Source of the DNA: Acidobacteriaceae bacterium
Lineage (GTDB): Bacteria > Acidobacteriota > Terriglobia > Bryobacterales > Bryobacteraceae
Assembly: GCA_020247055.1 (NCBI GenBank)
Contig: JADCJL010000017.1
Span: forward strand, 26,236-90,235
Direction: 5' to 3'
DNA: 64,000 nucleotides
The position numbers were made by a program, and so were the translations under genes. Shown piece by piece: positions 39,953 to 54,072 of this stretch (position 1 is the first letter of the stretch; each line of letters opens with the position of its first letter). Below the pieces are notes generated by a model, which saw nothing but the letters and a program-made list of their open reading frames with translations, did not search any database and was not told the origin of the DNA.

Positions 39953-41765
39953 TGGGCCGGATCTGGGCCGGCCATTCATAGGTTGGCTGGTTGGCGAACC
40001 GCTTCATGGTTAGCGTCAGGGTTCCCACCGAACCAGGCCGCAGCTGTACACTCAGGTGACGCGAGTTCACGTCGCGCTTCGTCTTGCCATCGTCGACCGT
40101 GAGGAACTGGTGTTCACCAAACGCCCCGGCTTGCAGAATGGTCTGCCGCGCCGCCGTCGTCGAAGTATTGACGAGCGTCACCCGAACGCTATCCTCCGTA
40201 ATCCGGTCCACCAGGGCGGCCACGTCCTCGGGAATGCCCGCGCGCTTCCGGTCGACGTCAAAATACCGCAGGCGCACATGGAGTAACCCCCCATGATAGA
40301 TATGGTTCGGCCCGCCCATCATCTGCTGCACCAACCCCTCAAGCACTACCGGGTTCCGGTCCTGCCAGTGGTGGACGTTCATCTCCTCCGGAGGCGTTTT
40401 GTCGGCGCGGATCACGGCAAGGCGCCGCAGACACTCCGCATAGTTGCCGCGCAGCACATCGACCGGCCAGCTGGGATTATTCCCTTCGAGAAACCGCATC
40501 CACGGGCCTTCGTTCTTGTCGTCCCCCTTGGCCTTGCGATAGGGCGCGTTCGTCAGTTTCGGCATGTCCACCAACTGATTCAAACGCGCCAGGTCCGGAG
40601 CGCCGAAGCTCATATACCAGAGGTTCACCGGATACTGCGGCACCGCCGGACGCCAGTCGTACCAGCCCTGCTCGGCGTGCCGATTCGGTACGAGCACCTG
40701 GCCCTGCTCCGTCCGGCTGACCTTGGCGATATAGGCCTGCTGGGAGCGGGGCAGCTCCAGAAACCGGGGATCGCCGGTCAGCAGCAGGGCGTTCGCCCCG
40801 CCGATCATGGTCGCCTCCAGTTGATTGAACAGGCCGTGCGGCCAGCGCCAGCCGTAATAGCCGCCGTACCACTTACCGTCCATCGTCTCGCCGATTTTGC
40901 CGTTCGGACCAATGTTATCGGGGATGATCCCGTTGTTGTCCCGGACGCGCTGCATCCAGGCATCGACATACTCGGTAATCCAGGTCTTGTACTTCGCCTC
41001 CCCGGTGTACATATACGCATGGGCGACCATGGAGGTCGACGCGAGATTCAGCGGCACGTCGGAGCGCATCATGCGCTTGTTCATCGTTTCGAGGATGTAG
41101 GGGAAGAGTTTGTCGTCCTCCCACGCCTTCGACTCCGTCACGTTCGGGATATCGTTATACGGCAGCGGATAGTGCGATAGGACATCGCGGTGCGTTACCC
41201 AGTCCTCGGCCGAGTTGACAAAGCGGGGTCCCTTCGAGCCGGTAATCGGCGAGGTGATGCGCTTGTGCACCGGGTCCCAGTTCGGGCCCTCGGTGTAGAG
41301 GCGGGCAAACTCAAGAGCCCGGCGCCGCATCCGCGGTTCGTAGGGATCAGACAGGCCGAAGAAGTAGAAGTTGACGTAGCTTTCGCCGTGGTGCATCCAG
41401 TCGTAGTAAGAATCAAACTCCTTGTGGACGGTCCCGTAGCGGGTAAACAGTTCAGTGACCTTGTCCCATAAGTGGCGGGCCAGCGGATCCATGCGCGCAT
41501 CGCCGCCGAGCGCGTGATAAAGCGGAAAGTTGTAGAAACTCTCGTAGCCATCGTCGCTGCCGTCCATGCCGGGCCATTTGGCGCGCCAGATGAGGGTGCC
41601 GTCGGGCCGGGTGTAGCGTTTGACAAACTCCTGCGAGGCGGGCCAGTACTCTTTAAGCAGCTGGCGCTGCCAGAGCGCCCATTCGGGTGCCGGTTTCGGG
41701 GTATCGATCACCACCGGCTGGGCCATGGCCGCCCACGCCGCCGTAAGAAACAGGAGATATCTCAT
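39927..41765 (-). CDS. large exported protein of unknown function, 612 aa
   Basis: The ATG at 41765 gives a clear signal peptide (MRYLLFLTAAWAAMAQ); longer readings start in unlikely sequence. The mature protein is rich in Trp, Tyr and His, with helical pairs and segments such as KWPGMDGSDDGYESFYNFPL, SYYDWMHHGESYVNFYFFGL and DGKWYGGYYGWRWPHGLFNQ, suggesting an (alpha/alpha)-toroid followed by a C-terminal beta domain, the layout of many polysaccharide lyases and glycosidases. I do not recognise the family. The 3' end overlaps ribBA by 26 bp in convergent orientation. Confidence 0.75.
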   Translation of the reverse strand: MRYLLFLTAAWAAMAQPVVIDTPKPAPEWALWQRQLLKEYWPASQEFVKRYTRPDGTLIWRAKWPGMDGSDDGYESFYNFPLYHALGGDARMDPLARHLWDKVTELFTRYGTVHKEFDSYYDWMHHGESYVNFYFFGLSDPYEPRMRRRALEFARLYTEGPNWDPVHKRITSPITGSKGPRFVNSAEDWVTHRDVLSHYPLPYNDIPNVTESKAWEDDKLFPYILETMNKRMMRSDVPLNLASTSMVAHAYMYTGEAKYKTWITEYVDAWMQRVRDNNGIIPDNIGPNGKIGETMDGKWYGGYYGWRWPHGLFNQLEATMIGGANALLLTGDPRFLELPRSQQAYIAKVSRTEQGQVLVPNRHAEQGWYDWRPAVPQYPVNLWYMSFGAPDLARLNQLVDMPKLTNAPYRKAKGDDKNEGPWMRFLEGNNPSWPVDVLRGNYAECLRRLAVIRADKTPPEEMNVHHWQDRNPVVLEGLVQQMMGGPNHIYHGGLLHVRLRYFDVDRKRAGIPEDVAALVDRITEDSVRVTLVNTSTTAARQTILQAGAFGEHQFLTVDDGKTKRDVNSRHLSVQLRPGSVGTLTLTMKRFANQPTYEWPAQIRPTTKSAPAR

Positions 41766-41835
41766 GACCAGAGATTCTATCCCTATTCGCGCCGGCCATG
41801 GGCGGAGGCACAGCGGTATCTGCGATACTGCTTCC

Positions 41836-42333
41836 ATGAGCGACCGGCGTGAGTTCTTGCTTTCTCTTCTACTCGAACCGGACCAGGAGCGCCCGATGCG
41901 GCGAGCCATCGCCCTGGCGGCCAACAACCCCGCGGCGCCCTACGCGGCGGTGCTGGTGGAGACCGCCAGCGGCGAAGTCGTGGCCGAAGGCTGGAACAAG
42001 TCGCGCCAGAACCCACTGCTGCACGGCGAGACGGACGCCATCAACCGGTGCGCCGGGGACAAGCCGGGGATTGACTGGACCGCGCTGACCCTGTACACCA
42101 CGGCGGAGCCGTGCCCGATGTGCATGGCGGCCGCGCTCTGGGCGGGTATTCCCAAGGTGGTCTACGGCTCCTCGATTCCGTTTCTGACCGCCCTGGGCGG
42201 CAATCAGATCGATATCCGGGCCAGCGAGGTAGCCCGGCGGACCGGCTTCCGGCAGACCACGGTAGTGGGCGGGGTGTTGGAAGAGGAGTGTAACGCCCTC
42301 TTCCTGGCGGCCAAAAAGCTCGCCGCACGCTGA
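41836..42333 (+). CDS. zinc-dependent nucleoside/guanine deaminase (CDA fold)
   Basis: Cytidine-deaminase-fold enzyme of 165 residues. The zinc site is complete: LLHGETDAIN (His ligand and catalytic Glu) and TTAEPCPMCMAAALWAGIPKV (two Cys). The pattern AALWAGIPKVVYGSS suits guanine deaminase or TadA-like proteins. The length and the short N-terminal extension (MSDRREFLLSLLLEPDQERP) differ from typical TadA, so a free-base or nucleoside deaminase is more likely than a tRNA editor. It is divergent from the exported unknown, and a small terminator follows. Confidence 0.82.
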   Translation: MSDRREFLLSLLLEPDQERPMRRAIALAANNPAAPYAAVLVETASGEVVAEGWNKSRQNPLLHGETDAINRCAGDKPGIDWTALTLYTTAEPCPMCMAAALWAGIPKVVYGSSIPFLTALGGNQIDIRASEVARRTGFRQTTVVGGVLEEECNALFLAAKKLAAR

Positions 42334-42343
42334 AATGACAAAA

Positions 42344-42363
42344 CGAAGCCAACTTCGCTTTTT
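42344..42363 (+). terminator. small intrinsic terminator after the deaminase gene
   Basis: A short stem CGAAG / CTTCG with loop CCAA is followed directly by CTTTTTG. The stem is only 5 bp but is placed 11 bp after the stop codon and has a U-run, the arrangement expected of an intrinsic terminator. Confidence 0.6.
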
Positions 42364-42422
42364 GCCGGAGCCCCCGGGTCACGCGCGAAGACAACGGCTA
42401 GGGCCGGGTCGGCAGCCCGGAG

Positions 42423-43943
42423 CTACAGCAGAGCCTCGATAACGCTCGGACCCCGCTCCCGCAGGCACCGGGAGAAGTGTTCGACAAACCCCTCCACGGT
42501 CTCCACCCGCACCGCCGGCACCCCAAGCCCTTCCGCAATCCGGACAAAGTCCAGCGGCGGGGACCCGATATCCACCATGGCGCCGGCGCGTTCCCCAAAG
42601 CCATTCGCCCCCGTGCGCCGCATCTCGACATCCAGAATCTGATACCGGCGATTGGCAAAGATCACGGTCACGACGTCCAGCCTCTCGCGCGCCATGGTCC
42701 ACCACGCTTGCGGCGTGTACAACGCGCTGCCATCACCCTCGAGCACCACCACCTTACGGTCGGGACACGCAATGGCCGCGCCAACCGCCACCGGCAGCCC
42801 CTGGCCGATCGAGCCGCCCGTCACCGGCAGATAGTCAAAACGCCGGGCGTGACGCAGGGCCGCCAAAACCGGCGGCCCGGAAGAGACCATTTCGTCGGAG
42901 AGAATCGCCTCGGGCGGCAGTAGGGCGGCGATGGCCTGGCCCAACGCCGCCAGCGTCAGCGGGCCCGGCGGGGGCACGGGCAGAGCTGGCGGCTCGTCCC
43001 AGGAGGCCGGCGGCAGGGGCTCGGCCAGCGCGGCCAGCGCGGCGAGACCGTCCTGCCCGGGAGTGGCGAGTTCGTGGACGCGGCAGCCCTCCGGGGCAAG
43101 GTAGCTGGCTTCGTCCGGGTAACCGAAGAAAGAGACGGGAGCCTTGGCTTCGAGCAGGACCAGGTCCGTCAACCCCGCCAGCTGCGCCTGCGCCGGTCCC
43201 GGGAAGTAGGCGATCCGTTCCGGCTGGAAAACGCCGCGGCCCATGGTCATCCGGGCGGCGTTGCGGTCGATCAGCACGCGCCAGCCGGCGGCGGCGAGGC
43301 GAGCGGCGAGGGCAAGGCCCCGCTCGCCGGTGGTCTGGCCGCCGAGGAGCAGACCCCACTTCCCTGCTCCGCCGAGCGGCGGCACGACGGGCGCCGGGGG
43401 CGGCGCGGGCGGGACGGGCTCGCCGATGGGGCCGCCGGGCGACCAGGAGAAGTCGGCAGGAATGATCAGGTGCGCAATCGAGCCCGGGTAGCGGCGGGCC
43501 GCGCTGACCACGCGGGCGGCGGTGGGGCCCATTTCCTCCGCCGATGCGAGGCGGAATACTTCGGCCGAGACCGTGGAGGCGAAGGCGGCGATATCGGCGG
43601 TGAGCGGCGCGTCGTAGGCGAGGTGCCGGGTGGAGTGTTCGCCAATGAGGCTGACGATAGGCGTGCGGGCTTTGCGGGCGTTGTGGAAGTTGGCGAGACC
43701 ATTGGCGAGGCCGGGCCCAAGGTGGAGCAGCGTAGCGGCGGGTTTGCCGGTCATGCGGGCGTAGCCATCGGCGGCGCCGGAGCAGACCCCTTCAAACAGG
43801 CACAGCACGCCACGCATGGCGGGGACACGGTCGAGCGCGGCAACGAAATGCATCTCCGAGGTCCCTGGGTTGGCAAAGCAAACCTCGACGCCGTGGGCGA
43901 CAAGGGTACGCAGGAGAACTTCGGCTCCGGTCATCATAATCAT
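42423..43943 (-). CDS. thiamine-diphosphate enzyme of the acetolactate synthase/benzoylformate decarboxylase type
   Basis: ThDP-dependent 2-keto-acid enzyme of 506 residues, single-subunit form without the usual FAD-domain length. The cofactor-activating Glu is in CLFEGVCSGAADGYARMTGK (E51), and the ThDP-Mg motif runs from LEGDGSALYT to the Asn in VIFANRRYQI. The N-terminal VCFANPGTSEMHFVAALDRV is close to MdlC-like proteins. It probably decarboxylates or condenses a 2-keto acid; the true substrate is unknown. The AGGAGG seven bases before the ATG at 43943 fixes the start. It is 21 bp downstream of the Gfo/Idh gene, so they form an operon. Confidence 0.88.
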   Translation of the reverse strand: MIMMTGAEVLLRTLVAHGVEVCFANPGTSEMHFVAALDRVPAMRGVLCLFEGVCSGAADGYARMTGKPAATLLHLGPGLANGLANFHNARKARTPIVSLIGEHSTRHLAYDAPLTADIAAFASTVSAEVFRLASAEEMGPTAARVVSAARRYPGSIAHLIIPADFSWSPGGPIGEPVPPAPPPAPVVPPLGGAGKWGLLLGGQTTGERGLALAARLAAAGWRVLIDRNAARMTMGRGVFQPERIAYFPGPAQAQLAGLTDLVLLEAKAPVSFFGYPDEASYLAPEGCRVHELATPGQDGLAALAALAEPLPPASWDEPPALPVPPPGPLTLAALGQAIAALLPPEAILSDEMVSSGPPVLAALRHARRFDYLPVTGGSIGQGLPVAVGAAIACPDRKVVVLEGDGSALYTPQAWWTMARERLDVVTVIFANRRYQILDVEMRRTGANGFGERAGAMVDIGSPPLDFVRIAEGLGVPAVRVETVEGFVEHFSRCLRERGPSVIEALL

Positions 43944-43964
43944 GATCGCTCCTCCTTGACCGCC

Positions 43965-45251
43965 TTAGAGCTTCACCTTGGCCGTGTCGGGATTCCAGGA
44001 GGCGCGGGTTCGGTGGCGATAGGCGAGGTTGCACAGGTGCGCGGCGGCGGCGGCAAAGTGGCCCTCTTCGGCGTTTTCCCGGCTGGGCTTGTTGTTCCGG
44101 ATCGAGTCGATGAAGTACCAGTTGTGGGACTGACCGCGTTCGACCGGGATCTCCCGGGCCTCGGGGCGGGCCGGGCGCGCTTCGCCCGCGAACCGCGCCA
44201 GATACTCCTCGCGCAGTTTCTTCGGGAAGTTCAGGCTGCCGTACTCCTGGGCGTTGCCGGATTTGCGCTCCGGGGTTAACTCAAGGCGGTTGAAGGTGAC
44301 GAGCAGGGTCCCTTCATCCCCGTAAATAAAGATCCCGCGCGGCTGCTGGCCGTTCGCCTGGTTGACGTAAACGTCCACCAGAAAGCCTTCCGGATACTCG
44401 AGCAGCGAATTCATCACATCGGGTACCGTGCGGCCATCCTTCCATTTCGAGAGCACACCCTGCGAGACGGCCGATAGCGGAGCGCGCACCCCCATGATTT
44501 CGTGCATCTGCGTGAACTGATGGACGAACAGATCGGCGGCGACACCGCCCGAATACTCCCAGAAGCGGCGCCACTGAAAGACGACCGCCGGGTCGAAGGC
44601 CTTCTTCCTGGTGCGGCCCTGCCAGCCGGGCCAGTCAATGGTCTTCTCGGAGGCATCCGGAGGCACCGGGTACTGCCAGGCGCCCTCGGCGGAGTTGCGA
44701 TGGTTGGCCATGCGGATCATGTTCACCTTGCCGAGAGCGCCGCTCGCGACGATTTCGCGGGCCTTGGCCGTGAGGGCCGAGGTCTTGGCCTGGCTGCCGA
44801 CCTGGAGGACCTTGCCGCTGGCCTTGGCGGCGGCGATGAGGCGAGGGCCTTCGGCGATGGACCAGGTCATCGGTTTCTCGATGTAGACGTGCTTGCCGGC
44901 GGAGAGGGCGTCGAGGGTGATCTTTTCGTGCCAGTGATCCGGGGTGGCGATGACGACGGCGTCGATCTCCTTCTTGTCGAGGAGGGCCCGGTAGTCGCGG
45001 CCGGTCCAGATGGCGTCGCCGAGTTGCTCTTGGGCGCGCTGCCGGCAGCCATCGTACAGATCGGCGACGGCGAGGCCGCGGGCGCCGGGGACGGCGGCGA
45101 ACTCGTCGATGAGCTGTTTGCCGCGGACCCCGCTGCCGATGAAGCCGAGCCGCACCTCGCCGGCGCCGGACTGGGCCAGGGCGGCCGAGGCGGGGCCGAG
45201 GGTGTAAACCGCCGAAGCGGTGCGGAGGAAGGTGCGGCGAGTCGAAGCCAT
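43965..45251 (-). CDS. Tat-exported Gfo/Idh/MocA-family oxidoreductase
   Basis: NAD(P)-binding oxidoreductase of 428 residues. The N-terminus STRRTFLRTASAVYTLG is a clear twin-arginine signal. The Rossmann part has VRLGFIGSGVRGKQLIDEF, AVVIATPDHWHEKITLDAL and the family signature HVYIEKPMTWSIAEG with the catalytic Lys; the C-terminal domain has GVAADLFVHQFTQMHEIMG. Exported members of this family are common in Planctomycetes and Acidobacteriota and act on sugars or inositols; some use the tightly bound cofactor for non-redox glycoside cleavage. It is followed by the ThDP enzyme. Confidence 0.9.
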   Translation of the reverse strand: MASTRRTFLRTASAVYTLGPASAALAQSGAGEVRLGFIGSGVRGKQLIDEFAAVPGARGLAVADLYDGCRQRAQEQLGDAIWTGRDYRALLDKKEIDAVVIATPDHWHEKITLDALSAGKHVYIEKPMTWSIAEGPRLIAAAKASGKVLQVGSQAKTSALTAKAREIVASGALGKVNMIRMANHRNSAEGAWQYPVPPDASEKTIDWPGWQGRTRKKAFDPAVVFQWRRFWEYSGGVAADLFVHQFTQMHEIMGVRAPLSAVSQGVLSKWKDGRTVPDVMNSLLEYPEGFLVDVYVNQANGQQPRGIFIYGDEGTLLVTFNRLELTPERKSGNAQEYGSLNFPKKLREEYLARFAGEARPARPEAREIPVERGQSHNWYFIDSIRNNKPSRENAEEGHFAAAAAHLCNLAYRHRTRASWNPDTAKVKL

Positions 45252-45459
45252 AGCTATCAGGGTACTGTACGGCAGCCGCACCGGGAGACCGCGCCAACAC
45301 ACAGATCGATTACGGATTTTCGTGGCGGAGGGGCCGGGACTTCCCGGCCCGGCCCGGATGAGAACTTAGAGGCCGGCCCCGGACTATCGTACTGAAACTA
45401 CATCATAAGTCCTAAGTGAGGCGCCCGTCCGGCGCTGCGCTCAGGCCATAGGTATCAAC

Positions 45460-46224
45460 ATGAGACACTTACTTCGACTTCCTCTTGCCGCGGCGGGGTT
45501 TGCCTTCGCGGCAATGAGCCCACTAAGTGCGGCCACGCTGATCACAAATGACCGGGGCGAATGGCTTACCGGAGTATCCGGACTGCTTACCTTGAATCTC
45601 GATACGTTTTCGAGCGGAGCCACGGGCGGCGCTTTTACCTCGGGCGGCACGGTGCAGCCGGGAAATACGGCCTTTTACAGCAATATGAACGGTTACTTCA
45701 ATAATAACTTCCAGATCGTCGGCTTCAGTAACGCTACTAATTTCCTCGCCCATACGCTCGCCAGCGTGGCGCAAACCTGGAACAACTGGGGCACCGGCGC
45801 CATATTAATGAGCCAGACCAAGGACACGACCAATACGGTCTCCTTGCGTGTGACCTTCCGGTCCGGCGGCGTCACCACCCCGGTGAACGCCTTTGGCTTT
45901 GCGCTGGGATTGGGCGGCAACGGAGGCGCTTCGGGAACGATCACGGTGACCCCGCAGGGCATGGCGGCGCAGACTGTAACCACCTTCAATCAAGCCTCGG
46001 GTTTAAAGTTCTTCGGCGTGACGAGCGACACCCAGACGTTTAGCTACGCCGATATCACGATTACCGAGCCGACCCGCTGGATAGTGCTCGACAACATTGA
46101 ACAGGGCGTCTTCACGGCCCCGCCCCCCACGGATGTTCCCGACGTCGCCACTTTGGTGTGTGTAGGAACGGGCCTGGCCTGCCTGGGCGTACTCCGTCGC
46201 CGGCGGCTGGCGGAAGCTGCCTGA
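45460..46224 (+). CDS. PEP-CTERM-like sorted exported protein
   Basis: Protein of 254 residues with a signal peptide (HLLRLPLAAAGFAFAAMSPL), a beta-rich, Gly/Thr/Asn-rich body (LITNDRGEWLTGVSGLLTLN, TVSLRVTFRSGGVTTPVNAF, GFALGLGGNGGASGTITVTP) and a C-terminal sorting tag: VPDVATLVCVGTGLACLGVL followed by the basic RRRRL. The tag resembles PEP-CTERM signals processed by exosortase and has VPDV where most have VPEP. Exosortase is not in the window. The 3' end with the tag is copied downstream in tandem. Upstream lies a 208-bp gap with a GGGCCGGG/CCCGGCCC hairpin at 45331-45350. Confidence 0.8.
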   Translation: MRHLLRLPLAAAGFAFAAMSPLSAATLITNDRGEWLTGVSGLLTLNLDTFSSGATGGAFTSGGTVQPGNTAFYSNMNGYFNNNFQIVGFSNATNFLAHTLASVAQTWNNWGTGAILMSQTKDTTNTVSLRVTFRSGGVTTPVNAFGFALGLGGNGGASGTITVTPQGMAAQTVTTFNQASGLKFFGVTSDTQTFSYADITITEPTRWIVLDNIEQGVFTAPPPTDVPDVATLVCVGTGLACLGVLRRRRLAEAA

Positions 46225-46252
46225 CGGCCTATTCCAAACTCAGCGCCAACAG

Positions 46253-46291
46253 AAAGGGCTTCGCGGGGAACCGCGAAGCCTTTGGCTTTTT
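46253..46291 (+). terminator. intrinsic terminator of the PEP-CTERM-like gene
   Basis: A perfect 10-bp stem around CTTCGCGG / CCGCGAAG with a GGAA tetraloop extends to 13 pairs with one G-U (AAAGGG side and CCTTT side). GGC and a run of five T follow at 46287-46291. It lies 29 bp after the stop codon. Confidence 0.85.
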
Positions 46292-46491
46292 CACCGAGTC
46301 GAACCACTGGGCGGTGCCCGACACCATGGAACAGTGCGTCTTCGCAGCCCCGGCAGCCCCGCCCCCCTCGCAGGTTCCCGGCGCCGCCGCTTTGGTGTGT
46401 GTAGGAACGGGCCTGGCCTGCCTGGGCGTACTCCGTCGCTGGCGGCTGGCGGAAGCTGCCTGACGGCCTATTCCCAACTCGGCGCCAACAG

Positions 46492-46530
46492 AAAGGGCTT
46501 CGCGGGGAACCGCGAAGCTTTTGGCTTTTT
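46492..46530 (+). terminator. duplicated copy of the intrinsic terminator
   Basis: The same GGAA-capped hairpin as at 46253, shifted by exactly 239 bp, with one base changed on the 3' side of the stem (GCTTTT instead of GCCTTT). It is also followed by five T (46526-46530). It lies after unit B of the repeat. Confidence 0.8.
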
Positions 46531-46681
46531 CACCGAGTCGAACCGGTGGGAGGTGCCCGACACCATGGAACAGGGCGTTACCGCAGCCCCGGCAGCCCCG
46601 CCCCGCTCGCATGTTCCCGGCGCCGCCGCTTTGTTGGGTGTGGGAACGAGCCTGGCCTGTCTGGCCGCACTCCGCAAGAGG

Positions 46682-47896
46682 TTAGCGGGGCCGCCGGAAC
46701 ACGGAGGTATCCGGATGGTAGTGGCGCCAGTCGAACCAGTAGTCCCGAATCAGTTCGAGGCGCTCGAGACAGGCCCCGGCAGCGGGCCCCGCGATGGCGC
46801 AGCCTTGAAAGTTCCAGCGGCTGCCGGTGGCCTCGTCGACGAGCAGAGCGCCCGGTTCACCGGTAAGTCGGTAGAAGTCGGTGGGGGCGCCCGAGGCGGG
46901 CAACTGCGCGCGGAAGGCGCGAATGGAGCGGTTATCCGGGCCGAGCACGATGGCGAGAGGCACGGCGCCGAGACGGTCGAGCACGAGCGTTTCGCGGAGA
47001 ATGAGTTCGTGCGGGTAAGCCCGGGCGGCGCCGCCGGCCTGAATCCCCAGCACTAGAGTGCGGGGCTGCAGTCCGGGTTCGGCGTAGCTCAAAACGGTCG
47101 GGGTGCTTTGCATCTTCGCCTCCCAGTCCCGGGCGGCGTACCGGGCGGCGTCGCGGGGAGATTCGGCCAGCAGGGTACCGGCGGGCTGTTCGGCTCTCCA
47201 GAGGCCGAAGGTCAGTTCGCCGGAAGGGACAAGTTCGAGTTGGCGGCCGGCCAGCGGCCCGGAGATGGCAAGGCCGCTGATCTGCTGCCAGAACGTACCG
47301 GTTTGCTCATCGCGCATGAGAAAGTTCTGATTGTTAATGCCCGCCAACCGGAAGGTTAACGTCAACTGGCCCACCGAACGCTTCCACACCAGACCGGTGT
47401 GACAGAGCGTTCAATACGTCGCCACGATGGGCACGCCTCCGGCGGTGTCGTTAACGATGTGATGGTAGGCGATGGCGCGGACCGGATAGGCCCGGGCAGC
47501 GCCGCGCTGTTCGATCGCCAGCACCATCTCGTCAGGGGCCAGTTGGGCCGCCGCGGCAGGCTCGAAAGCGGGCTGGTCGATGGGGTGGAACATCAGCTCA
47601 AAGACGTTTACTCGGACCGCGGCAGCGGCCAGGAGGTTGAGGAGCAGGGCGGCGGCAGCCGCGAACCTGGCGGACCGGCGGGTCAGGAGATGGCGGAAGC
47701 GGTAGATGGCCAAGGCCGCCGTCCCCAGACACAGCAGGGTCCCGGCGGGCCGCAGGCGCAGAACGAGCAGAGCCGCCTCCAACTCGCGCGGGCCCTGGGC
47801 GCGGAAGGGGCGGATGACATAGAGGGGATAGAGGGCGCCGCAGAGCGCGAGGCCTGCGCAGGCGGCCAGCAGGAGCCAGAGGCGTCGGTGGTTCAT
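46682..47896 (-). CDS. DUF3179 membrane protein read through an in-frame UGA; candidate selenoprotein
   Basis: One frame of 404 residues if the single UGA at 47413-47411 is decoded. Residues 1-161 hold three membrane helices (about 6-28, 48-66, 77-95), then the DUF3179 start DEMVLAIEQRGAARAYPVRA and HHIVNDTAGGVPIVATY. The UGA follows at codon 162, then TLC, HTGLVWKRSVG and NFLMRDEQTGTFWQQISG. Family members have VTYCPLCNTG here, so the UGA replaces the first Cys of CxxC, giving Sec162-x-x-Cys165. The downstream 242 codons are open and conserved in kind, including a second DUF3179-like segment (TLVLGIQAGGAARAYPHELI). A nonsense mutation is the alternative. Function is unknown; a redox role is likely. 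Confidence 0.8.
47376..47412 (-). promoter_or_regulatory. candidate bacterial SECIS hairpin immediately after the UGA
   Basis: On the minus strand, starting at the G of the UGA, a lower stem GAACGCT pairs perfectly with AGCGTTC (7 bp). A CTGT/GA internal loop separates it from an upper stem CACACC / GGTGTG (6 bp), capped by the 5-nt loop GGTCT. The apical loop lies 15 nt after the UGA. In E. coli fdhF the SelB-binding loop also contains GGUCU at a similar distance. Pairing is complete in both stems although the segment also codes for protein. Confidence 0.8.
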
Positions 47897-47998
47897 CTCC
47901 TGGGTACGATACGCTCTCGCGCAAAGGATCCCAATAGTAGGTTTCGACTATTGGCGGAATGGCGGCGGGCGGTTCGCCTACGGGGTATAGTTTTCTCT

Positions 47999-48856
47999 AT
48001 GCCTTCGGTTCCGCTTTCCATTCCGGCCGGCGCTTGCGACTGCCACACCCATATCTTCGGCAACTACCCGCTCGTGGCGGAGCGCCGTTACACGCCGGAG
48101 CCCGCGGGGCCGGAGGCGATGGCAGCGCTGCACCGGTCCCTGGGGATGGAACGGGTGGTGATCGTGACGCCGAGCGTTTACGGGGTAGACAACACGAGCA
48201 CGCTGGACGGAATCCGGGCGCGGGGCGGGACGGCGCGAGGGATTGCCGTGGTTGACGATCAGGTGGGCGAGGCGGAGTTACGGCGGCTGGCGGCGGGAGG
48301 AATCCGGGGGATCCGGCTGAACCTGGCGACGGCCGGGGTGGACGACCCGGTGGTGGCGGCGGCGCGTCTGCGTTGGTCGGCGGAGCTGGTGGGCGGCCTG
48401 GGGTGGCACGTGCAGGTGTATACGACGCCGGTGGTGATTGCGGCGCTGGCCAAGGTGGTGGCGGGCCTCGGGGTGCCGGTGGTGTTCGACCACTTTGGCG
48501 GGGCATCGGCGGCACTGGGCGTGCGGCAGAGCGGGTTTGCCGAGTTGTTGAAGCTGGTGGAGGCGGGGCGGGCGTATGTGAAGATCTCCGGGGCGTATCA
48601 TGTCTCGCAGCGGGGCCCCAACTATCCGGATTGCGCGCCGCTGGCGCAGGCACTGATTGCCGCGAACGCCGAGCGGGTGCTGTGGGGCACGGACTGGCCA
48701 CACCCGCCCGCGCCTTCGCCAACGCCGCTACGGCCCGCGCCGTTTCGGACGATCAACGATGGTTTGCTGCTGCAGCAGTTGGGAGTTTGGGCGCCGGATG
48801 CGGCGGTGCGGGAGAAGATTCTGGTGAGCAATCCGGCGCGCTTGTACGGGTTTTGA
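47999..48856 (+). CDS. amidohydrolase of the LigI/2-pyrone-4,6-dicarboxylate lactonase type
   Basis: TIM-barrel hydrolase of 285 residues. It has the cluster AGACDCHTHIFGNYP near the N-terminus (HxH pair), VPVVFDHFGGASA and ERVLWGTDWPHP with the catalytic Asp near the C-terminus, as in the Amidohydro_2 lactonase branch. LigI itself hydrolyses pyrone dicarboxylate in lignin aromatic breakdown, but many relatives act on other lactones, so the substrate is open. The ATG at 47999 is the natural start. It is divergent from the DUF3179 gene, with about 100 bp between them. Confidence 0.85.
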   Translation: MPSVPLSIPAGACDCHTHIFGNYPLVAERRYTPEPAGPEAMAALHRSLGMERVVIVTPSVYGVDNTSTLDGIRARGGTARGIAVVDDQVGEAELRRLAAGGIRGIRLNLATAGVDDPVVAAARLRWSAELVGGLGWHVQVYTTPVVIAALAKVVAGLGVPVVFDHFGGASAALGVRQSGFAELLKLVEAGRAYVKISGAYHVSQRGPNYPDCAPLAQALIAANAERVLWGTDWPHPPAPSPTPLRPAPFRTINDGLLLQQLGVWAPDAAVREKILVSNPARLYGF

Positions 48857-48920
48857 GTTGGACGCGGACCGCCTCAGGCGTAGAGGCCAGTCGACCGAGA
48901 GGCGGACGAGTTCGGCGAGG

Positions 48921-49325
48921 TCATCCTGAGGGGGAGGGCTTGCCGGGAATCTCGCATTTGATTCCAGCGCCGCTCTTTCCGGCGCGGCACGGGATGGCGT
49001 TCGCACCGCTGGAGGCGGTGACCTGATCGGGACGGAAGCTCTTCTTCCACTCCGCGGCCTCGTGGCTGATTTCGCGCGCCGGGATGCCCTGGCCGTCGGC
49101 GGTGGTCGAGGAGGAATCGAGAGCGAAGGGGGCGGACAGGTTGACGTTGACTACGGAAGATTCGTAGGCGATCAGGCGGCCGCGGAAGGACTTAAAACCG
49201 TCGGGAACTTCGACGGAGACGTCGCCGGCGGCGTTGCGGCGCCCGAGTAAACCATGTCGGGAAGAAAACGGCCGCTGCCGACAACGCAGCGCGAGGCTCT
49301 CCGGCGTTTCAGAGACCAGAATGAA
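48921..49325 (-). pseudogene. startless coding-like frame (gene remnant)
   Basis: The stretch between the amidohydrolase and miaE has no complete gene, but the minus strand carries one frame of about 135 codons without a stop. It has a protein-like composition, for example VSVEVPDGFKSFRGRLIAYE, SSVVNVNLSAPFALDSSSTT, ARE ISHEAAEWKKSFRPDQ and a late Cys pair in IPCRAGKSGAGIKCEIPGK. No ATG, GTG or TTG lies in frame ahead of it, and the upstream part runs into the end of miaE. It looks like the 3' part of an exported protein gene that lost its 5' end or suffered a frameshift. The family is not recognised. Nothing is seen in 48857-48920. Confidence 0.45.
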
Positions 49326-49923
49326 TCAGCGATCCCGGTTTTTGCGCGGCGAGGATTTCGGCCTCTGTATCGAGCCACTGCGACCAAGTCGACGCCACGA
49401 CATCGGGTGCGGCGATCTTATTGGCCAGCTTGAGAAAGATCTTGTAATGGCCCATCTCGGAGGCAAACAGAGCGTGATAGAACCGGGCCAGATCGGGCTC
49501 CTGCTCCGCGGCCGCCGCGGCCAGGACGGCGAAGCGTTCGCAGGAGCGGGCCTCGATCAGGGCGGAGACACAAAGGCGGTCGAGCAGCTCTTCGCCGCCG
49601 CCGTTGCGCACGCAGGCGCGCAGGGCGCGGGGGTAAGCGGCTTTATGGGAACGGACGAGGCGGCCGCCGCGCTTGATGAGGACGCGGGTGACCTGGGCCA
49701 GGTGGGCGGCCTCGTCGCGGGCGACGCTCGTGAGGGCTTCCACCCAGCCGGGAACCCAGGTGTTCGGCCAGCGGGTCATCAGGTCCATGGCGTTCTGGGC
49801 GGCCTTCATCTCGAGAAAGGCATGATCGTTGAGAAGCGCGACGGGATCGGCGAGGGCAAGGTGGCCCCAGGCGAGCGGGGTGCGCGTGCGCAGCGGCAGG
49901 GAGTCTACGGAGGCGGGGGTCAA
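49309..49923 (-). CDS. miaE: MiaE-like tRNA hydroxylase (non-haem diiron)
   Basis: Ferritin-like diiron protein of 204 residues resembling MiaE, which hydroxylates the isopentenyl group of ms2i6A37 in tRNA. The diiron ligands are visible: LLNDHAFLEMKAAQNAMDL (Glu), VARDEAAHLAQV (Glu-x-x-His), SALIEARSCERFAVLA (Glu) and FASEMGHYKIFLKLAN (Glu-x-x-His). The ALIEARSCERF block is the strongest family mark. The start is a TTG at 49923 just after GAGG; no ATG fits. The gene's tail overlaps the startless frame described at 48921. Confidence 0.85.
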   Translation of the reverse strand: MTPASVDSLPLRTRTPLAWGHLALADPVALLNDHAFLEMKAAQNAMDLMTRWPNTWVPGWVEALTSVARDEAAHLAQVTRVLIKRGGRLVRSHKAAYPRALRACVRNGGGEELLDRLCVSALIEARSCERFAVLAAAAAEQEPDLARFYHALFASEMGHYKIFLKLANKIAAPDVVASTWSQWLDTEAEILAAQKPGSLIHSGL

Positions 49924-49974
49924 ACCTCAGGGTAACGCAGAAGCCGGCGGGACGGGACGGGTTAGGATAGAGAA

Positions 49975-51146
49975 ATGAAAGTCCTGGCGGCCCTGCTTGC
50001 CCTGGTTATGAGCGCGATGGCGCAGGCCAACCGGCTGACGCCGAAGGAGGCAGCCGAAGGCTGGCTGCTCCTCTTTGACGGCCAGTCGATGTTCGGATGG
50101 ACCGCCGAGGGGTTGGCCAAGTGGCAGGTGGTCGATGGCGCGCTGGTAGCCGACAGCGGCGGCTACGGCTGGCTGCGGACCAACACGCAGGTGACCGACT
50201 ACTCGTTGCGGGTGGATTTCCAGACGGCGGCGGATGGCAACAGCGGCATCTTCCTGCGATCGGCCAAAGGCAAGGACCCCCACGTCAGCGGCTACGAGTT
50301 ACAGATTTATGACGCGCACCCGAAGTTTCCGACCGGCTCGATTCTGGAGGCCGGACGGACGAGTAAGAGGATCCGGATCAATCCGGCTAAGTGGCACACT
50401 TATGAGGTTTTCCATGTGGGCGCCCGTTGCCTGGTGAAGCTGGACGGAAAGAAAGTACTGGATCTCAGCGACAGTAAGTCGGCGGGCGGGTATCTGGGTC
50501 TGCAGTTCAATCCCAACAAACCGGTGGCGTTCCGGAACATCAAGATGCGCCCCCTGGGTTTGGCCCCGCTGTTCAACGGGCGGAACCTGAGCGGCTGGCA
50601 GGAGGTGCAGCCGCCGAAGGCGCCGGCCAGCCCGGCCGTCTGGAGCGTGAAGCGCGGGCTGCTGCACGTCGAGAAGGGCCCGGGGCAGTTGGAGACCAAA
50701 GCGATCTACGACGATTTCATCCTGCAGATGGAGGTTCGCGCCAACTCAACCGACCCCAACTTCCATCCCAACAGCGGAGTCTTTTTCCGGGGCACGCCCG
50801 GCGGCTACTGGACCGGTTATGAGATCCAGATCCGGAACGAGTTTCAAGACGGCGACCGGACCAGGCCGGTCGATACCGGCACCGGCGGCATTTACTTTCA
50901 TCAGCCGGCGCGGCGCGTGGCCGGCACGGACAACGAGTTCTATACGAAGACCGTAATCGCGCAGGGCCGGCACATCGCCACATGGGTGAACGGCTATCCG
51001 GTGGCGGACTGGGAAGATCCTCATCCGGAGGGGACTAGTCCGCGTAACCGGCAGGCGCTGCTTAAGGCGGGACCAATTTCCCTGCAGGCACATGATCCCA
51101 AGACCAATCTCGACTTCCGGAACATCCGCATCCGGAGCCTGAAGCG

Positions 51147-51150
<4 letters not shown>
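49975..51150 (+). CDS. exported protein with two DUF1080 (3-keto-glucoside hydrolase-like) domains
   Basis: Protein of 391 residues with a signal peptide (MKVLAALLALVMSAMAQ) and two tandem concanavalin-like DUF1080 domains. Domain 1 is about residues 28-195 (EGWLLLFDGQSMFGWTAEGL, DYSLRVDFQTAADGNSGIFL, SGYELQIYDAHPKFPTGSIL). Domain 2 is about 198-390 (LAPLFNGRNLSGWQEV, DFILQMEVRANSTDPNFHPN, SGVFFRGTPGGYWTGYEIQI). DUF1080 proteins include 3-keto-disaccharide hydrolases acting with Gfo/Idh-type dehydrogenases. Its ATG is preceded by AGAGAAATGA. The convergent etfA overlaps its end by 4 bp. Confidence 0.88.
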
Positions 51151-52069
<919 letters not shown>

Positions 52070-52073
<4 letters not shown>

Positions 52074-52807
52074 AGGACGCGAACCTCATACTTCAGTTTT
52101 TCGGCCAGGGCGCGGGCGGCCTTTTCGGGGTCGCCATCGAAGATCTGAGCCTGCTTGGAGCGGCTGGGGGCATAAGCGGCGCCGGCGGCGACCTGAGCCG
52201 GAACCGGGGCGCCTGCCATCTCGCGGATCTCCTTCGTCTTGGCCTTCTTGATGCCCATCAGAGTGGCGTAGCGCAGCTTGTTGATGCCGCTTTGGATGGT
52301 GAGGACGGCCGGCAGCGGGAGGGTGACGTATTGGAACCAGCCGTCTTCGAGTTCGCGCTTGACGCGGACCGCGGCCCCCTGCGGCTCGATGGCCATGATG
52401 AGCGTAGCGTGGGCATGGCCGAGGAGTTCGGCGAGAATGACGCCGGTCTGGCCGCTGCCAAGGTCGTCCGACTGCAACCCGGTGAGGACCAGATCGGGCG
52501 CTTCGCTGACCACCGCCTCGCGCAGGAGGTGGGCCACGCCGAGCGAGTCGAGTTGGCTGGGATCGTCAACCCGGAGGTGGACGCCGCGGTCGGCCCCTTT
52601 GGCGAGCGCCTCGCGGATGGCGGTGACGACTCGCGGCGGACCGGCGGAGATCACCACAACTTCTCCGCCCTGCGCTTCACGCAACTGCAGAGCGGCCTCG
52701 AGAGCGTAGGCATCCGGTTCGTTGATCTCAAACTGCAGATCCGCTTCCGGCGCGCCCGGGACAGCGTCCCGGGCCGGAACCTGTTTCAGGGCCACCGCAA
52801 TTTTCAT
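52070..52807 (-). CDS. etfB: EtfB, electron transfer flavoprotein beta subunit
   Basis: AMP-binding beta subunit of 245 residues. Characteristic parts are INEPDAYALEAALQLREAQG, GADRGVHLRVDDP, PDLVLTGLQSDDLGSGQTGV (the nucleotide-binding segment) and the recognition loop PAVLTIQSGINKLRYATLMG followed by IKKAKTKEI. It is followed by etfA and overlaps the stop of fabF by ATGA. Placement after fatty-acid synthesis genes is unusual. Confidence 0.95.
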
Positions 52808-54072
52808 GGCTGATACTTCTTGAAGATTAGGCCGCCGTTGGTGCCACCGAAGCCAAACGAGTTGCTCATGGCGACGTTGATGGTCATCGGACGGGCGACG
52901 TTCGGCACGTAGTCGAGGTCGCAGGCGGGGTCGGGCGTTTCGTGATTGATGGTGGGCGGGGCGATCTGGTCGCGAATAGCCAGCACGGCGATGCCGGCTT
53001 CGAGGCCACCCGCGCCGCCAAGCAGATGGCCGGTCATGGACTTCGTGGAACTGATGGCCAGTTTGTAGGCGTGGTCACCGAAGGCGCGTTTAATGGCGGT
53101 CGTTTCGAGTTTGTCGCCGAGGTCGGTGGAGGTGGCGTGGGCGTTGAGATAATCGACGGCGGTGGGTTCGATGCCGGCGTCGCGGATGGCGGCGCGCATC
53201 ATGCGGAAGGGGCCATCGCCGTCCTCGCTCGGGGCGGTCATGTGGAAGGCGTCCCCGCTCATGCCGTAGCCCACAATTTCAGCGAGGATGTTGGCGCCGC
53301 GCGCCTTGGCGAATTCAAGCTCTTCTAGCATGAGAATGCCGGCGCCTTCGCCGATGACGAAACCGTCGCGGTCCTTGTCCCACGGCCGGGAGGCGCGTTG
53401 CGGGTCGTCATTGCGCGTCGACAGCGCGCGGAGAGCGGCGAAGCCGCCCACGCTGAGCGGGGTAATGGCGGCTTCGGCGCCGCCGCAGATCATGGCATCG
53501 GCATCGCCGCGCTGAATGATCTTGAACGAATCGCCCACGGCGTGGGCGCCCGTCGTGCAGGCCGTGGCAACCGCGGAGTTCGGGCCCTTGGCGCCGGTGC
53601 GGATGGAGACCTGGCCGCTGGCGAGGTTGACGATCGTCGCCGGAATGAAGAATGGCGAGATCTTGGACGGACCGCCCTCGAGCAGTTTCGAGTGCTCCCG
53701 TTCAATCACCTCGAAGCCGCCGATGCCGCTGCCGATGTAAACGCCGATGTGTTCGGCGTTCGAGGCATCGATTTTGAGACCCGAGGAGGCCAAGGCCTCG
53801 TCGGACGCGGCGATGGCGAACATCATGAAGCGGCCGAGCTTTTTGAGCTCCTTGCGCTCGATCCAGCGGGACGGATCAAAATCCTTCACCTCGCCGGCGA
53901 AGCGGCAGGCAAAACCGGTGGTGTCAAAAAGCGTTATCGGCGCGATGGCACTCTTGCCGGCGATCAGGCCCGCCCAGGTGGCCTCGGTCCCGATGCCGAG
54001 ACCCGAGACAAGCCCCACCCCGGTTACAACGACTCTACGCTTGCTGTACGCAGTTTTTGATTGTTCAGCCAA
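52804..54072 (-). CDS. fabF: FabF, 3-oxoacyl-ACP synthase II
   Basis: Condensing enzyme of 422 residues that elongates acyl-ACP in fatty-acid synthesis. The Cys-His-His triad is intact: VATACTTGAHAVGDSF (Cys), YLNAHATSTDLGDKLET (His) and STKSMTGHLLGGAGGLEAGI (His). The start is a TTG at 54072 with a good AGGAG eight bases upstream. It follows acpP by 51 bp and its stop overlaps etfB. The gene order acpP-fabF is conserved in many bacteria. Confidence 0.96.
   Translation of the reverse strand: MAEQSKTAYSKRRVVVTGVGLVSGLGIGTEATWAGLIAGKSAIAPITLFDTTGFACRFAGEVKDFDPSRWIERKELKKLGRFMMFAIAASDEALASSGLKIDASNAEHIGVYIGSGIGGFEVIEREHSKLLEGGPSKISPFFIPATIVNLASGQVSIRTGAKGPNSAVATACTTGAHAVGDSFKIIQRGDADAMICGGAEAAITPLSVGGFAALRALSTRNDDPQRASRPWDKDRDGFVIGEGAGILMLEELEFAKARGANILAEIVGYGMSGDAFHMTAPSEDGDGPFRMMRAAIRDAGIEPTAVDYLNAHATSTDLGDKLETTAIKRAFGDHAYKLAISSTKSMTGHLLGGAGGLEAGIAVLAIRDQIAPPTINHETPDPACDLDYVPNVARPMTINVAMSNSFGFGGTNGGLIFKKYQP

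Follow-up and report, generated by a model that had tools for sequence, protein, structure and literature searches.

The window (the whole stretch of 64,000 nucleotides analyzed here) carries on its minus strand a frame of 404 codons plus a stop, running from 47896 to 46682, whose sole internal TGA is codon 162 (47413-47411). In a profile search, the two halves of this frame matched the DUF3179 family PF11376 separately (E 4.8e-15 and 1.8e-34). Read through the TGA, the frame covered positions 7-292 of the 292-position profile with 211.8 bits, the curated score being 27 bits. The TGA falls in the column that holds the first Cys of Y-C-x-L-C in DUF3179 relatives. The preliminary description of this DNA was therefore accurate in reporting a DUF3179 frame split by one UGA at the first Cys of a CxxC motif. 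The part ahead of the UGA comprises 161 residues and the part behind it 235, counted from a GTG at 47389. The host genome is a 6.56-Mb draft of 97.7% completeness, and the closest named relative that we found (L058, from a Bryobacteraceae bacterium) is 92% identical. The features of the locus are as follows.

46682..47896, minus strand: predicted DUF3179 selenoprotein gene, 404 residues with the UGA read as selenocysteine (Sec); one internal TGA; PF11376 E 1.9e-62 for the read-through frame.
47618..47890, minus strand: N-terminal segment (residues 3-93) interpreted as a membrane anchor; three long helices (3-27, 36-66, and 74-93) from structure prediction; hydrophobic, topology judged by eye.
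47162..47581, minus strand: DUF3179 repeat 1, about residues 106-245, with the UxxC motif; predicted Rieske-like fold (profile and structure comparison).
47411..47413, minus strand: in-frame UGA, predicted Sec162, first position of UxxC; of 80 named relatives, 79 share the TGA.
47402..47404, minus strand: codon of Cys165, predicted partner of Sec162; invariant across 54 aligned proteins.
47384..47402, minus strand: apical SECIS-like hairpin of seven pairs, offsets 11-29 past the UGA's U; fully paired in 93 of 97 distinct Sec genes and in 3 of 17 Cys genes.
47391..47395, minus strand: apical loop GGUCU; present in all 97 Sec genes and in one of the 17 Cys genes.
46697..47101, minus strand: DUF3179 repeat 2, about residues 266-400, without UxxC; predicted Rieske-like fold (profile and structure comparison).

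Next to the gene, positions 46117-46674 hold a 239-base tandem repeat (2.3 copies, 91% matches), which duplicates the 3' end of the neighbor gene at 45460-46224, presumably PEP-CTERM-like, and reaches the end of the DUF3179 gene.

From 108 confirmed relatives in a scan of named genomes, 80 were retained; they are 40-92% identical over the match. In the UGA column, all but one of them have TGA, the exception being a TGC in L125. Since the same codon is shared this widely, the TGA is neither a chance occurrence nor the sequencing slip that the preliminary description had listed among the things that would refute it. Among all 170 fetched loci that include the column, with same-gene copies left in, the codon is TGA in 132; 34 have TGC or TGT, and the remaining 4 encode Ser there. 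Of 200 genomes from the window's family, 74 gave a DUF3179 match; a row containing one TGA occurs in 55, a count made on rows of which only part were read codon by codon. In the class, 68 of 399 genomes gave matches at E up to 1e-60; of the TGA marks in this set, that of G285 sat at the gene end and that of G387 proved to be TGC once the gene was read.

This conservation bears directly on the idea that the DUF3179 gene is decaying, with the UGA as a premature stop and the downstream half as a relic. The stop does interrupt the frame and is followed by a GTG start at 47389, and one relative, L107, has an additional in-frame TAG 46 codons ahead of the UGA. However, L107 is alone among the 79 TGA relatives in having another stop before the gene end, the scatter of stops and frameshifts that decay would leave in relatives is not seen, and third codon positions are strongly constrained near the UGA. 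We consider decay next to impossible; the preliminary description had already argued against simple decay on the basis of the long, clean downstream frame.

The genome encodes the complete Sec pathway. Profile searches of the genome found SelA (452.5 bits, cut-off 268), SelB (357.7 bits, cut-off 242), and SelD (355.1 bits, cut-off 125), and the tRNA-Sec (SelC; 70.1 bits, cut-off 47) was called by ARAGORN as tRNA-SeC with anticodon tca, so that all four genes whose presence the preliminary description had proposed to check were found. The SelD of this genome (L018) is itself a predicted selenoprotein, with a UGA in G-U-A-S-K. Therefore, a second gene of the same genome points to Sec decoding. 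Insertion of Trp or Cys at the UGA, through suppression or an altered genetic code, is accordingly extremely improbable: we found nothing in its favor, and it leaves aside the full pathway as well as the hairpin described below, which tracks TGA. In addition, TGA serves as the ordinary final stop in 24 of the 79 Sec relatives and, therefore, is no general sense codon.

Sec insertion in bacteria relies on an mRNA hairpin, and we compared the region past the UGA, setting 97 distinct Sec genes from the U-x-L-C-H/R-T-G subfamily against 17 Cys orthologues as the control. The loop GGUCU together with all seven pairs is found in 93 of the 97 Sec genes versus none of the 17 Cys genes; where the seven pairs persist in Cys genes, the loop is different. 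For the loop, the difference between Sec and Cys genes has a Fisher p of 1.3e-18, with kinship ignored. The 61 bases from the UGA fold at -24 kcal/mol (z -2.28), and 2 of 200 shuffles were equally low. Because the hairpin is nearly invariant, covariation is slight, with changes on both sides in two of the seven pairs. Synonymous-site constraint, the more informative measure, supports the same region: across 80 Sec genes and 161 scored codon columns, codons -1 to +8 supply 9 of the top 11, and all 80 genes use GGT for Gly+6, although GGT makes up 14% of Gly codons. A lower stem seen when the window sequence was folded alone (offsets 1-7 with 31-37) was dropped as a common feature, its pairs 1-37, 2-36, and 3-35 occurring in 33, 3, and 8 of 81. 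A search of 40000-54000 against Rfam gave no match at E up to 1.

The same data speak to the possibility that the UGA is a true stop, with re-initiation at GTG 47389 yielding a membrane piece and a soluble DUF3179 piece of 235 residues. Both reading frames are open, and databases do carry a separate protein entry for such a piece of 235 residues (P0002). Against this, the hairpin tracks TGA and not TGC, Cys orthologues exist at full length, and the domain around the UGA is predicted as one unit (mean pLDDT 94.4 and 92.1), in which a split at the UGA would cut a beta-hairpin. We hold two separate products to be very improbable. Both this reading and the pseudogene reading were rejected on conservation, synonymous-site constraint, and the predicted single domain.

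Altogether, the Sec machinery, the conserved TGA, the SECIS-like hairpin, and the Cys orthologues without the hairpin strongly support reading the UGA at 47413-47411 as Sec, and judging from sequence comparison, this decoding is very likely. By analogy with the known pathway, SelB with Sec-tRNA(Sec) would bind the hairpin that starts 11 bases past the U, and the ribosome, rather than terminate, would place Sec at residue 162. The three predicted N-terminal helices would serve as a membrane anchor that leaves the DUF3179 part outside. Sec162 and Cys165 would then alternate between a selenol/thiol and a selenenylsulfide state, as proposed for other UxxC proteins, so that the protein would act as a thiol-type oxidoreductase. 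Cys orthologues would carry out the same chemistry, mostly in genomes without SelB. We are thus confident, at the level that sequence allows, that the locus encodes one 404-residue protein with Sec at the UGA, predicted to be membrane-anchored and to present a Sec-x-x-Cys redox motif on the outer face of the cytoplasmic membrane.

For the presence of SelB, we compared 37 matching genomes outside the window's family together with G469, of which 15 have a Cys copy and 23 a Sec copy, with every codon read. SelB scored above cut-off in 22 of the 23 Sec genomes versus 0 of the 15 Cys genomes, nearly all outside the window's family (Fisher p 1e-9, with kinship ignored). The one Sec genome without SelB above cut-off, G265, is 84% complete. 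Since 12 of the 15 Cys genomes belong to one genus, the independent Sec/Cys events are few. In the family set, with up to six candidates scored per genome, SelB exceeded the cut-off in 50 of the 55 TGA genomes, leaving G006, G012, G067, G131, and G199. G012 and G067 are 96 and 99% complete; assembly gaps, the sole explanation that we offer, may account for the absence of SelB from these two. One genome of the window's family, G171, has a Cys copy only (L140, the same gene as L125), yet its SelB scores 347.8 bits. Therefore, the link between the Cys form and the lack of SelB is not strict. A precedent for dropping Sec at one gene while retaining the pathway is given in the available text of PMC1794560.

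We masked the Sec/Cys position and built a quick tree of 92 rows, in which the 16 Cys rows with Y-C-T-L-C-H fall together in a single group (SH-aLRT 99) placed within the Sec rows; this suggests a change from Sec to Cys. Constraining the Sec rows to a single clade was not rejected (p-AU 0.19, 86 rows, with L039, L123, L141, L142, L143, and L171 left out for long branches or Ser states); the direction is, therefore, a lean and not a result. One member of the Cys group, L139, comes from a genome (G014) that also has a Sec copy, L149. Exchange of Sec for Cys was called rare in 2006, with 15 events in four families (PMC1794560).

According to profile comparison, the DUF3179 part consists of two domains repeated in tandem. 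When the predicted structure of each repeat was compared with known structures, the 50 matches listed for either were all proteins of the Rieske type or fold, as judged from title or protein class. NirD, which appears in both lists, is a Rieske fold without a cluster. In the sequence, neither the CxH nor the CxxH ligand pattern of a [2Fe-2S] cluster is present at C162, C165, C366, or C376. Sequence searches for the Rieske link were negative as well: hhalign of a Rieske profile with either repeat gave a probability of 0.4 (reversed controls, 0.2 and 0.6), no Rieske family was among the best 25 of 57 families in the Pfam comparison, and searches of PDB sequences (E up to 10) and NCBIfam (E up to 1) returned no match. 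Besides Cys165, the residues His146, Cys366, and Cys376 are invariant across the 54 aligned proteins, and His166 is nearly so. Going by the alignment ranges, UxxC would lie at the turn of a hairpin, and Cys366 and Cys376 might form a structural disulfide or a resolving pair.

With Sec-x-x-Cys beside the nearly invariant His166, the protein is best read as a predicted extracytoplasmic thiol/selenol oxidoreductase. A selenoprotein in which UxxC binds metal or has a structural role, instead of catalyzing redox chemistry, is the most serious competitor to this assignment, though an unlikely one. Its appeal lies in the predicted fold, which resembles a metal-cluster scaffold, and in the invariant His146 and nearly invariant His166; it runs against the experience, reported in the available text of PMC1794560, that UxxC selenoproteins are mostly homologous to thiol-based redox proteins. 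Second copies with Ser at both CxxC positions (Y-S-x-x-S-H) occur in L141 (G187) and L171 (G469), with the Sec copies L150 and L196 in the same genomes; such paralogues indicate that loss of the pair is possible, an observation compatible with the redox and the metal or structural views alike. A further thought is that U/C-T-L-C-H is a c-type heme motif, making the protein a cytochrome whose Sec form would bind heme through a selenoether. The Cys form C-T-L-C-H does match CxxCH, and prediction puts the domain outside the membrane. However, the residue after the second Cys is N, S, or G in other DUF3179 branches (C-P-L-C-N, C-T-L-C-G, W-C-G-V-C-N/S) and R in L123, and no cytochrome c domain is among the 50 matches listed in either predicted-fold comparison. 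Because other DUF3179 branches are without the His, we hold heme attachment to be unlikely, indeed highly so.

Returning to the oxidoreductase, we tentatively propose, with rather less than even confidence, that DUF3179 consists of tandem Rieske-fold domains that lost the cluster and would carry out redox chemistry through Sec/Cys-x-x-Cys at the hairpin turn, that the Acidobacteriota Sec form would be ancestral to one membrane-anchored subfamily, and that an Edaphobacter-like lineage reverted to Cys upon loss of SelB. Should the predicted Rieske-like fold be correct, it would offer a structural hint to the role of DUF3179, a family of unknown function by its Pfam name. Gene neighbors name neither function nor substrate, since clusters in the flanks are sparse: when a conserved operon was sought around the 80 named loci, the widest cluster beyond DUF3179 and shadow frames occurred in 17 loci, and pilus-like genes, as read from their sequences, lie upstream in 11 to 16 of the 80.

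UGA at the same column also occurs in other DUF3179 forms. L055 (G150) and L146 (G117) represent a second subfamily, with T-W-U-G/S-Y-C-N and a hairpin of its own after the UGA, and adjoin the Cys relatives L040-L042 in the tree. L142 (G113) and L143 (G197), from the window's genus, are a third, distant form with T-F-U-V-V-C-N and a different hairpin after the UGA.

The preliminary description had proposed a candidate new selenoprotein family and knew of no described DUF3179 selenoprotein. The selenoprotein part is borne out by the machinery, the conserved TGA, and the hairpin, but the claim of a new family is not. A table in PMC9312934 lists a "DUF3179 domain-containing protein, pfam11376, UxxC/T", credited to its reference 63 (Zhang and Gladyshev 2007, on an Olavius symbiont), and a table in PMC13188914 has the same entry. 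Moreover, NCBI product names of relatives read "DUF3179 domain-containing (seleno)protein". Given the two review tables and these names, the window protein is a well-supported new member of a family already known. In the main texts of the two reviews, as available, no word starts with "acidobacteri". In the available text of PMC9230427, a DUF3179 protein appears once, as a table entry with the cytoplasmic membrane as predicted location; neither this text nor that of the two reviews reports a tested function for a DUF3179 protein. Within the open-licence literature, in the text accessible there, we found no paper on the anchored Acidobacteriota form or on a Rieske-like fold for DUF3179. Possibly new, therefore, are the three-helix anchored form and the tandem repeat with Rieske-like predicted halves, without cluster ligands or sequence-profile support.

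The finding matters in two ways. Because databases store the second half of the gene as its own protein (P0002), the selenoprotein is hidden, though it is present in much of the examined Acidobacteriota. In addition, the subfamily constitutes a natural experiment, in which Sec with a near-invariant hairpin can be set against Cys without the hairpin, mostly in SelB-less genomes.

Compared with known systems, both DUF3179 repeats have a predicted fold resembling that of Rieske iron-sulfur proteins and ferredoxins (PF00355); unlike these, they are without the CxH..CxxH cluster ligands and without sequence-profile similarity, and UxxC would sit at the hairpin turn. The DUF3179 selenoprotein tabulated in PMC9312934 and PMC13188914 belongs to the same Pfam family, PF11376, and has a UxxC motif; the window protein differs from it (examples MBW1804167.1 and MDJ0986319.1, set apart by description only) in its three-helix N-terminal region and its Y-U-T-L-C-H motif. 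The NCBI DUF3179 (seleno)proteins of Edaphobacter and Tunturibacter are full-length orthologues, 46-50% identical to the window protein, whereas those that we aligned (P0026, P0032, and P0041) are Cys forms.
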